Positions 510 to 23,509 of a DNA stretch of 64,000 nucleotides are shown here, piece after piece. The first letter of the stretch is position 1; every line of letters starts with the position of its first letter. Below the pieces are notes generated by a model, which did no database searches, was not told the DNA's origin, and was given only the letters and a program-made list of their open reading frames with translations. Source of the stretch: Oscillospiraceae bacterium (GTDB lineage Bacteria; Bacillota; Clostridia; Oscillospirales; Oscillospiraceae); assembly GCA_015067885.1 (NCBI GenBank), contig SVLO01000009.1:1-64000 (forward strand), read 5' to 3'. A program made the translations under genes and the position numbers.

Positions 510-992
510 ATGAATGAGCTTCCAAAACGCAAAGCCATTCGCATTGAAGATTACGATTATTCCACCCCGGGGGCATATTTCATTACGGTCTGCACCGCAA
601 ACAGAGAGAAAATCTTCTGGTCTGATCGTAGGGGCGAACTGTGTTCGCCCGCCAATCCACCGTTGTCGGATATTGGAATTATTGTGGATAATGAAATCAA
701 AAAACTGAATACCGTGTATGATGCTGTTCGGGTTGATAAGTATTGTATCATGCCGGATCATATTCATTTCATCATTTCAATTAACACCGACGAGAACGGG
801 CGCACACAGTGCGCCCCTACGATATCACGGGTGATAAAGCAATTCAAAGGGTCGATTACAAAACAGGTTGGCAGACCCATTTGGCAGAAATCCTTTTATG
901 ACCACGGGATACGGAATCAGCAGGATTACGATGAGATTTGGCAGTATATAGAGAACAATCCTCTAAAATATGCATTGAAAAAGGCACCGTGA
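510..992 (+). CDS. REP-associated tyrosine transposase (RAYT, Y1/IS200-like)
   Basis: Motifs YDYSTPGAYFITVCTANRE, YCIMPDHIHFIISI (HxH) and YIENNPLKYAL (Tyr helix) are typical of Y1_Tnp RAYTs. Confidence 0.92.
   Translation: MNELPKRKAIRIEDYDYSTPGAYFITVCTANREKIFWSDRRGELCSPANPPLSDIGIIVDNEIKKLNTVYDAVRVDKYCIMPDHIHFIISINTDENGRTQCAPTISRVIKQFKGSITKQVGRPIWQKSFYDHGIRNQQDYDEIWQYIENNPLKYALKKAP
632..650. repeat. REP-like palindrome inside the RAYT ORF
   Basis: GGGCGAAC-TGT-GTTCGCCC, preceded by GTAG. Confidence 0.8.
798..820. repeat. REP-like palindrome inside the RAYT ORF (opposite orientation)
   Basis: GGGCGCA-CACAG-TGCGCCC followed by CTAC. Confidence 0.8.
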
Positions 993-1007
993 AAACGGTG
1001 CCTTTTT
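978..1007 (+). terminator. rho-independent terminator of the RAYT
   Basis: AAAAAGGCACCGTGAAAACGGTGCCTTTTT, overlapping the RAYT stop codon. Confidence 0.8.
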
Positions 1008-1009
1008 GC

Positions 1010-1076
1010 GGGCGAACGCAGTTCGCCCCTACGGGAATGTACGATAGGGATTGTAGGGGCGACCTGTGTGTCACCC
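1010..1076. repeat. pair of inverted REP-like palindromes (BIME-like)
   Basis: GGGCGAACGCAGTTCGCCCCTAC (1010-1032) and GTAGGGGCGACCTGTGTGTCACCC (1053-1076) in opposite orientation. Confidence 0.8.
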
Positions 1077-1077
1077 G

Positions 1078-1197
1078 TTAGAACAGCGTTGTTATCCAAT
1101 AGATAATTCCATAGACTACACTTGCGCTCACGCCGTACACGATCACAGGGCCGGCGATGGTGAACATCTTTGCTCCGACGCCCAGGATGAAGCCCTC
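1078..1197 (-). pseudogene. 3' remnant of a spoVAC-like gene
   Basis: Minus-strand translation EGFILGVGAKMFTIAGPVIVYGVSASVVYGIIYWITTLF* matches the intact SpoVAC C-terminus EGFILGVGAKMFTIAGPVIVYGVSASVVYGIIYYFCQFVL*. Confidence 0.85.
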
Positions 1198-1274
1198 TGC
1201 TGGTGTCAACTCAGAACCCAAATTTCGTGTCTGCTAGGACTAAAATTATGCCGAAATACAATGCTTTACGAAAA

Positions 1275-2568: not shown

Positions 2569-2601
2569 AAAAAATGTCAGTCCGTCAAAGGACGAACTGA
2601 C
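2569..2601 (-). terminator. rho-independent terminator of spoVAC
   Basis: Minus strand GTCAGTTCGTC-CTTT-GACGGACTGAC followed by ATTTTTTC. Confidence 0.75.
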
Positions 2602-3025
2602 AAAAATAATAGATTATCCCATACACCACGCTGGCACTCACACCATACACGATCACCGGGCCAGCGATGGTGAACATCTTTGCTCCGACGCCCAGTATAA
2701 AGCCTTCTGTCTTGAACTCTACTGCCGGGGCGGCGATGGAATTGGCGAACCCGGTAATCGGTACCAGTGTACCTGCTCCGGCATGCTTTGCGATATTATC
2801 GTAAAGGCTCAGGCCTGTAAGCAGCGCCGACAGTGCCACCAGGCTCATAGCTGTGGCCGTACCCGCATCGGTCTTGTCCAGACCCAAGGCTTTGAATCCG
2901 TTCATTGCCAACTGACCCAAAGTGCAGATAAGCCCGCCGATCCAGAAAGCGTTAAAACAGTCTTTCCACATTGGCGATTTCGGTGACAGCTCCCCTACCA
3001 GCTGCTGATATCGTTTTTCCGTCAT
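2585..3025 (-). CDS. spoVAC: stage V sporulation protein AC
   Basis: MTEKRYQQLVGELSPKSPMWKDCFNAFWIGGLICTLGQ...PITGFANSIAAPAVEFKTEGFILGVGAKMFTIAGPVIVYG is SpoVAC-like. Confidence 0.9.
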   Translation of the reverse strand: MTEKRYQQLVGELSPKSPMWKDCFNAFWIGGLICTLGQLAMNGFKALGLDKTDAGTATAMSLVALSALLTGLSLYDNIAKHAGAGTLVPITGFANSIAAPAVEFKTEGFILGVGAKMFTIAGPVIVYGVSASVVYGIIYYFCQFVL

Positions 3026-3076
3026 GATGATCCCTCCAAAAACAGTTTTCCGAAGAATCGCAAAAATATACAAAGC

Positions 3077-3112: not shown

Positions 3113-3796
3113 TTATGCATTGGAGCGCAGCATTTCAATTGCCTCCCGCGCGGCATCCTGCTCAGCGCGTTTTTTGCTTCTGCCGGTGCCGGTACCGACT
3201 ACATTGCCGTTGAGACTGACCTCTACCAGGAACTGCTTGTCGTGATCCGGGCCGGATTCTCCCACCAGGCTATAGGTAAGTGTCTGGTTTTTCTTTTGCT
3301 GCACCAGTTCCTGCAGGGCTGTTTTATAATCCGCATTGTGGAGTTTTTTCACAGGGACCTCTGTGAGGATAAATTTCTCAATAAAGCCTCTGGCAGCCTC
3401 CATGCCGCCATCCAAAAATGCTGCCGCAATGACCGATTCTACTGCATCTGCCAAAATGGATGCCCGGGTTCTTCCGCCAAAGCGGTCCTCGCCGTGGCCA
3501 AGCAATAGATGCTGGCCCAGGCCGATCTTATTGGCCACTGCTGCCAGGCTGGTCTCGCAGACCATATCTGCCCGCATGCGGGTCAGCTCACCCTCGGGAC
3601 GGTCCGGAAAACTCTGGTAAAGATACTCCGCAACCACCATGCCCAGAATCGAGTCGCCCAAAAATTCCAGCCGCTCATTGCTCTTGAGGCTGTCATGCCA
3701 GCGTTCATTGGCATAGGAAGAGTGGGTCAGCGCATTCTGCAGCAAGCTGATGTTCCGAAACCGGTAACCGATGGCGCTCTCCAGATCCTTAATCAT
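3113..3796 (-). CDS. rnc: ribonuclease III
   Basis: NERLEFLGDSILGMVVAEYL signature plus C-terminal dsRBD (DYKTALQELVQQ...GTGRSKKRAEQDAAREA). Confidence 0.97.
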   Translation of the reverse strand: MIKDLESAIGYRFRNISLLQNALTHSSYANERWHDSLKSNERLEFLGDSILGMVVAEYLYQSFPDRPEGELTRMRADMVCETSLAAVANKIGLGQHLLLGHGEDRFGGRTRASILADAVESVIAAAFLDGGMEAARGFIEKFILTEVPVKKLHNADYKTALQELVQQKKNQTLTYSLVGESGPDHDKQFLVEVSLNGNVVGTGTGRSKKRAEQDAAREAIEMLRSNA

Positions 3797-23303: not shown

Positions 23304-23509
23304 GTAGGGGCGCGCTGCGCGCGCCCGCGGGCGGCCATACGGGGCCGCCCCTACGACAGACCTGCAAGTTTTCGCAATAGTCGGCGGGACTTCGATAGAC
23401 AGATAGATTTACAGAGGGTACGCAGGGCGGCAGCTCAATCGGAGCAGGCAAAGCCGGATATGACCGCCGACCATGTGGGTGCGATCCCACGGAGGTCGCC
23501 CAAAGGAAG
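23304..23509. repeat. composite intergenic repeat, copy 1
   Basis: Starts with GTAGGGGCG...CGCCCCTAC palindromes; ends with GATATGACCGCCGACCATGTGGGTGCGATCCCACGGAGGTCGCCCAAAGGAAG; same order as copy 2 at 25891-25996. Confidence 0.7.

Follow-up and report, generated by a model that had tools for sequence, protein, structure and literature searches.

Two inverted, matched REP hairpins lie within the coding sequence of a clostridial RAYT gene

Introduction

REP-associated tyrosine transposases (RAYTs) are expected to cut REPs, which are short DNA hairpins. In the window (the whole 64,000-nucleotide stretch analyzed here, from contig SVLO01000009.1 of an Oscillospiraceae genome), a RAYT gene contains two in-frame REPs, and we ask why the presumed substrate should be encoded within its own enzyme. 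Other RAYTs recognize a GTAG-tagged hairpin on a single strand, leave its complement unbound, and cleave next to it, and the choice of loop and stem differs between RAYT groups that co-evolve with their REPs (PMC8266576). In-frame REP insertions, generally between the HuH and Y motifs, are published for tnpA-REP genes of subclass 2.4, which also have an unexplained segment of about 8 amino acids at the end of helix B (Quentin 2018, PMC6006769), so the bare fact of in-frame REPs in RAYT genes is not new. Loci (L) and genomes (G) of our survey are cited below by our own numbers.

Results

The gene encodes a HuH single-tyrosine transposase. The features of the gene are as follows.

(i) 510 to 992, plus strand: RAYT/TnpA-REP open reading frame (ORF) of 160 amino acids, a HuH single-tyrosine transposase by profile, sequence, and fold matches.

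(ii) 759 to 767, plus strand: HuH motif (DHIH; residues H84-I85-H86), with H84 and H86 invariant among the 48 sequences of alignment A1.

(iii) 945 to 962, plus strand: Y motif YIENNP (residues 146 to 151), with Y146, N150, and P151 invariant among the same 48 sequences.

(iv) 978 to 1007, plus strand: terminator-like inverted repeat over the 3' end of the ORF (AAAAAGGCACCGT / ACGGTGCCTTTTT), with 13-nt arms that are 100% complementary.

The protein exceeds the cut-off of the Pfam profile Y1_Tnp (2.4e-06) and matches the NCBIfam profile REP_Tyr_transpos (NF047646) with an E value of 3.8e-21 and 75.5 bits, under the curated cut-off of 80, a narrow miss that is probably due to its two inserts. 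The top PDB match, by sequence and by fold, is 4er8, the TnpA-REP of E. coli; together with the Y1_Tnp match and the invariant residues, this identifies a Y1 transposase fold with a HuH motif and a single tyrosine. By analogy with Y115 and N119 of the E. coli enzyme (PMC6006769, PMC8266576), Tyr146 is probably the catalytic residue and Asn150 probably a metal ligand. The predicted structure has a mean pLDDT of 84, with values of 64 to 66 in the blocks that hold the REP sites; both sites form low-confidence loops (residues 41 to 50 and 91 to 104) around a helix (54 to 69), a strand (84 to 91), and a second helix (105 to 120). We found one RAYT in the source genome (assembly 87% complete) and no relatives of it among viral contigs. 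An Rfam match at 964 to 1038 scored 27.2 bits against a threshold of 114 and was taken as chance.

The reading frame includes two perfect REPs. The hairpins of the locus are as follows.

(i) 628 to 650, plus strand: internal REP 1 (site 1), GTAG-GGGCGAAC-TGT-GTTCGCCC, in the loop that precedes the HuH motif, its position kept in homologues.

(ii) 798 to 820, minus strand: internal REP 2 (site 2), GTAG-GGGCGCAC-TGT-GTGCGCCC, inverted and lying between the HuH motif and the tyrosine, its position kept in homologues.

(iii) 1010 to 1032, minus strand: perfect flanking REP of the GAAC type, from a pattern scan and folding.

(iv) 1053 to 1076, plus strand: degenerate flanking REP, with a folding energy of -2.4 kcal/mol that does not surpass those of shuffled sequences and a hairpin formed only jointly with 1010 to 1032.

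An earlier note on this DNA had placed two in-frame hairpins inside the ORF at 629 to 650 and 798 to 820, and both are there, the second at exactly these positions and the first starting at 628. Their translations, given in that note as RRGELCSPANPP and NGRTQCAPTI, are as we find them; we read the two peptides as (R)RGELCSP and GRTQCAPT. Each hairpin is perfect, with GTAG followed by an 8-bp stem and a 3-nt loop, and the two are a single compensated base pair apart (stems GAAC versus GCAC). Folded as single-stranded DNA (ssDNA), they have energies of -9.1 (REP 1) and -10.5 (REP 2) kcal/mol, which none of 200 shuffles equaled, and GTAGGGGCG is seen six times in the window against 0.56 expected (0/100 shuffles). 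When codons were shuffled with the protein kept, 13 of 5000 shuffles retained the hairpin of site 1 and 62 of 5000 that of site 2. The internal hairpins are neither a product of chance nor forced by the peptide.

The inverted pair that had also been noted downstream holds up for 1010 to 1032, a perfect REP on the minus strand, and not for 1053 to 1076, which is degenerate and folds no better than shuffled sequence. The cognate GTAG-tagged REPs that accompany this RAYT are the two internal ones and, downstream, one perfect and one degenerate; the 509 bases available upstream contain none. Within the gene, the inverted REP sites lie about 145 nt apart, and in the predicted fold of the RAYT mRNA they anneal to form one long stem (z of -3.5).

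Elements of the IS200/IS605 type are multicopy, have subterminal hairpins outside the ORF, and often carry tnpB. The window RAYT resembles them in combining a HuH single-tyrosine enzyme with ssDNA hairpins and in that their transposase lies between two hairpin ends, but it has no tnpB beside it, is present in one copy per genome, and has its hairpins in coding sequence. We rejected this assignment (transpos_IS200 scores 16.7 bits against 55; single copy; hairpins inside the ORF).

REPs occupy the same two sites in most clostridial relatives. By protein similarity to the window protein, 200 loci were gathered from GTDB genomes, and 156 RAYT genes among them were usable; the genomes are mostly fragmented metagenome assemblies, and group sizes vary with the thresholds applied. 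Site 1 was defined as query residues 34 to 53 and site 2 as residues 89 to 103. In a strict hairpin scan, 84 of the 156 genes had both REPs, forward at site 1 and reverse at site 2, 22 had one of the two, and 50 had none, about 20 of these last being distant relatives outside Clostridia; only 8 REP-like matches fell off both sites. The set of 84 is a lower bound: because the strict scan missed matched imperfect pairs (L153, L190), we added a type-agnostic comparison; of 136 clostridial RAYT genes, 96 have a site 1 that matches site 2, as opposed to 35 of 408 mixed control pairs. The earlier note had proposed asking whether homologues encode the same residues without palindromic DNA, and in general they do not, as most clostridial relatives are palindromic at these places too.

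A matching pair is absent from 40 of the 136 clostridial relatives with the gene still open, and the pair is therefore not essential. Some of these genes (L032, L044, and L076) have decayed REPs with the peptide kept, and others have unrelated loops. Median loop lengths in REP-less versus REP-bearing genes are 17 versus 19 amino acids at site 1 and 17.5 versus 19 at site 2, so the inserts do not simply add 8 amino acids; insertion into an empty site was rejected as a description, there being no clean empty site among these relatives. The internal REP type varies from gene to gene (GAAC in L031, GGAAGGCA in L147, GGGCCGAC in L158), while the orientation, plus at site 1 and minus at site 2, is that of all 84 genes and is opposite in one, L178. 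Arrays of two or three REPs stand at site 1 in L067, L081, L090, and L141, and site 1 is therefore still gaining copies in some lineages.

Two departures from the common arrangement were seen. L178 has its reverse REP at site 1 and its forward REP at site 2, still inverted and still matched (GTAGGGGCGGGTT...AACCCGCCC). In Elusimicrobia, L116 and L118 have in-frame REPs of another kind near both sites (GTAGTGGC..., GTAGTTGC...), with poorer matching.

The DNA, not the peptide, is conserved at both sites. For the ten genes picked by protein similarity as the clade of the window gene, differences at four-fold degenerate positions number 34 in 477 comparisons inside the REPs (7%) and 680 in 1364 outside them (50%); a separate within-type comparison, which is conditioned on equal arms, was left out of the evidence. 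Of 1680 synonymous shuffles, 25 and 30 retained a hairpin. Translation of the site-1 REP moreover uses either of two frames: 71 genes read VGA... and 13 read RRG..., the peptides are unrelated, and the frame has switched at least four times on the tree. What is conserved at both sites is the DNA and not the peptide, which makes this an unusually clear case of a coding stretch conserved for a DNA palindrome.

The two internal REPs covary within each gene. Site-1 stem arms fall into 38 types among the 84 genes, their loops being 3, 4, or 6 nt long, and the site-2 arm is identical to the site-1 arm in 66 of the 84, a level of agreement that none of 10000 permutations reached. Because permutation ignores kinship, we also compared disjoint nearest pairs of genes with differing site-1 types: in 41 of 42 the match is better within the gene, and one is a tie. 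Arm changes on the tree number at least 48 at site 1 and at least 46 at site 2, both rough minima given that the tree was built from 106 columns of masked core protein and most of its deep forks are unsupported. Nine genomes contain two or more paired RAYTs; there, 18 of 23 within-gene comparisons match as opposed to 3 of 42 between genes, and the link is therefore to the gene and not to the genome. Mismatched pairs are usually a single compensated base pair apart (L031, L070, L048, L053, L102).

Internal types match dispersed REPs in several genomes, and flanking REPs are scarce. The earlier note had asked whether the palindrome is enriched genome-wide, and the REP class is: the source genome has 46 copies of GTAGGGGCGNNC against 19 of the reversed control, and 34 exact matches to the class pattern GTAGGGNCGN9CGNCC. 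The GAAC stem type occurs there only at the RAYT locus, and elsewhere the stems are GGCC, GCGC, GCAT, and others. Most simply, the window RAYT would have come in together with its internal pair without multiplying it since, or else cognate copies would lie within the 13% that the assembly lacks. Dispersed REPs in this genome (G000) stand head to head in tight doublets that combine two different stem types, GGCC and GCGC (positions 23304 to 23354 of the window and many further sites of the genome, such as C17:84952-84999, C27:996-1043, and C35:70497-70544); a RAYT with internal GGCC or GCGC REPs was not found in the source assembly.

Dispersed pools were fully compared in six genomes. The internal type is the dispersed type in G001, G004, and G233, and in G012, G092, and G125 the dispersed pool is related to the internal type and not identical to it; the assignment of internal to dispersed types within their own genomes was reached by 2 of 720 permutations. 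RAYTs of the GAAC type co-occur with dispersed GAAC REPs in G362, G364, G365, and G366, and they are also found where the genome has next to no REPs of this class (G358, G360, G363). The source genome has few or no dispersed copies of the internal type, and nearly the same holds for these last three, so that in such genomes the enzyme may lack activity or be a recent arrival.

The premise that REPs flank RAYTs, from which the earlier note set out, fails for most of this group. A REP of the gene's own type lies within 1.5 kb at 23 of 84 loci (4% in a control with the types of other genes), is absent within that distance at 61, and occurs on both sides at one.

Discussion

An explanation of the internal REPs starts from what is observed, namely, both sites, their inversion, their covariation, their conservation at the DNA level, and their match to dispersed REPs in several genomes. 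The reading that we favor, to which we give even chances, is that this is a RAYT resembling subclass 2.4 with a matched, inverted pair of cognate REPs that is kept matched by the enzyme's own processing of REPs. By analogy with studied RAYTs, the enzyme would recognize its own internal REP type as single strands and cleave beside it. Because both internal REPs would be substrates, they might be overwritten repeatedly by, or exchanged with, REPs of whichever type the enzyme currently recognizes, so that the two copies keep resembling each other and the dispersed family; the coding gene would survive this since both loops appear to tolerate any stem sequence. We saw no case of an internal REP exchanged with a dispersed one, and the near-constant orientation fits inheritance with change in place better than fresh insertion. 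The relatives with an open gene and no matching pair, and the genomes whose dispersed REPs are few or only related to the internal type, also count against this reading. On entering a new genome, the gene would bring both enzyme and target with it, and this could account for the dispensability of flanking REPs in this group. A further step, which we put forward tentatively and think possible though less probable than the first, is that the ORF is a substrate carrier, whose embedded inverted pair replaces flanking REPs, tracks specificity, and travels as a specificity tag.

The main rival to processing by the enzyme is autoregulation, in which the internal REPs would be putative operators: the RAYT would bind its own gene (as ssDNA) or mRNA, or the copies would pair with each other, and synthesis would be lowered. 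Selection for binding would make both copies follow changes of specificity, and a self-recognition or regulatory role is compatible, as far as sequence comparison goes, with the two sites, their inversion, the covariation, and the DNA conservation. The long stem predicted in the mRNA also speaks for regulation, as do the self-match even where the genome has other RAYTs and the maintenance of the pair in genomes with almost no dispersed copies. Regulation does not sit well with the many clostridial relatives that lack a matching pair or with sites deep in the ORF, far from the start; and, given that the enzymes of E. coli and S. maltophilia do not accept the complementary strand (PMC8266576), a RAYT able to bind RNA would recognize site 1 alone in the mRNA. 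We consider autoregulation somewhat doubtful. Passive tolerance, by which REPs inserted by chance into two permissive surface loops persist as harmless filler, is the published reading for subclass 2.4, whose insertions fall in a peripheral variable region (PMC6006769), and the low-confidence loops and the decayed REPs of L032, L044, and L076 are in keeping with it. It is strained by the four-fold comparison: under neutrality, such sites in the REPs would not be conserved sevenfold over those in the remainder of the gene. Nor would neutral filler stay matched over 38 stem types or keep a single orientation, 84 genes to 1, and we judge this reading improbable. The related proposal of the earlier note, self-insertion tolerated as coding sequence, would explain why the loops accept inserts, and by itself leaves the two conserved sites, near-constant inverted orientation, covariation, and DNA conservation unexplained.

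Two further readings were weighed. Template switching during replication could restore a hairpin from its own arm and a site from its inverted partner, with no need of RAYT activity or of selection; mismatched pairs that differ by one compensated base pair, and sites that are inverted repeats about 145 nt apart, are in line with such self-correction. The agreement with dispersed genomic REPs and the conserved GTAG tag, which lies outside the stem, have no explanation under it, and we think it quite unlikely as the whole account, although template switching could add to the compensated changes. Alternatively, the REP-encoded peptides might form part of the DNA-reading surface, such that the target writes its own recognition loop. 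The peptides do follow REP type in a fixed code (VGADIIRP and GRIISAPT for GGAT; VGATCGRP and GRPQVAPT for GACC), but this reading is disfavored because the site-1 REP is read in two frames, one REP class giving unrelated peptides (VGAHSVRP or RRGAQCAP for GCAC), and the corresponding insertions lie away from the DNA surface according to PMC6006769. We regard a recognition loop of this sort as very improbable indeed.

Among described systems, the nearest is TnpA-REP subclass 2.4 (RAYT group 4; PMC6006769). The window RAYT shares its WQ and YIxNNP motifs, its long GTAG REPs, and a REP inserted in frame within the gene; the segment of about 8 amino acids at the end of helix B corresponds to site 1, and the variable insertion between strand 3 and helix C corresponds to site 2, both inserts being present in the predicted structure. 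It differs at the HuH motif, NH[IFV]H there and DHIH here, so that two of the three subclass motifs (NH[IFV]H, WQ, YIxNNP) are matched exactly (DHIH, WQ, YIENNP). In the main text of PMC6006769 we found no mention of a second REP at site 1, inverted pairing, covariation, or missing flanking REPs. Relative to the literature on in-frame REPs that we consulted, the second internal REP, the inverted matched pair, the covariation, and the scarcity of flanking REPs are new.

Classical RAYTs, or REPtrons (Nunvar 2010, PMC2817692; 4er8), likewise combine a HuH-Y1 fold with inverted, GTAG-tagged cognate REPs, of a family specific to each RAYT (PMC2817692), but there the inverted pair flanks the ORF and here it is inside. 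The substrate of the group 3 TnpA-REP of S. maltophilia has the same build, with GTAG, a perfect 8-bp stem, and a 3-nt loop in 23 nt; that enzyme belongs to subclass 2.5, and internal REPs are not described for it in the portion of the text consulted (PMC8266576). Intragenic REPs in unrelated genes are also GTAG tagged, in frame, and read as peptide (Di Nocera 2013, PMC3733652), but those are single or dimeric inserts scattered over many proteins, unlike the two fixed, matched sites in one family seen here.

These observations touch on how RAYTs and REPs stay matched and on how the pair survives transfer between genomes. With enzyme and target in one ORF, the REP type that a RAYT recognizes could be read from its own gene, which would allow specificity to be predicted for some 38 stem types and would supply a collection of natural enzyme-substrate pairs.

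Surroundings of the locus

One further feature adjoins the RAYT.

(i) 1096 to 1199, minus strand: partial copy of the 3' part of spoVAC, downstream of the RAYT; the full spoVAC lies at 2585 to 3073 on the minus strand.

The duplicate of this sporulation gene spans about 34 codons, from EGFILG onward. Copies of the 3' end of spoVAC are stacked beside spoVAC in other genomes as well (L062, L061, L035, L034, L079, L114, L213; in L062 at 2073 to 2217, 2719 to 2850, and 3405 to 3474), separated by one or two small genes in the manner of a cassette array. Genes carried between the copies include RAYTs, a MerR-family gene, DUF5412, DMP19, and an uncharacterized gene common to L062 (2928 to 3359) and L213 (4889 to 5362). 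No recombinase was identified near the arrays in the stretches viewed, and in L213 a retron-type reverse transcriptase adjoins the array.

RAYTs 75 to 92% identical to that of the window (L061 to L069) occur in metagenome-assembled genomes from the gut of cattle, goat, buffalo, sheep, and deer, and other sampled members of the window's genus have either no RAYT or only a distant one. This distribution suggests horizontal transfer of the RAYT.
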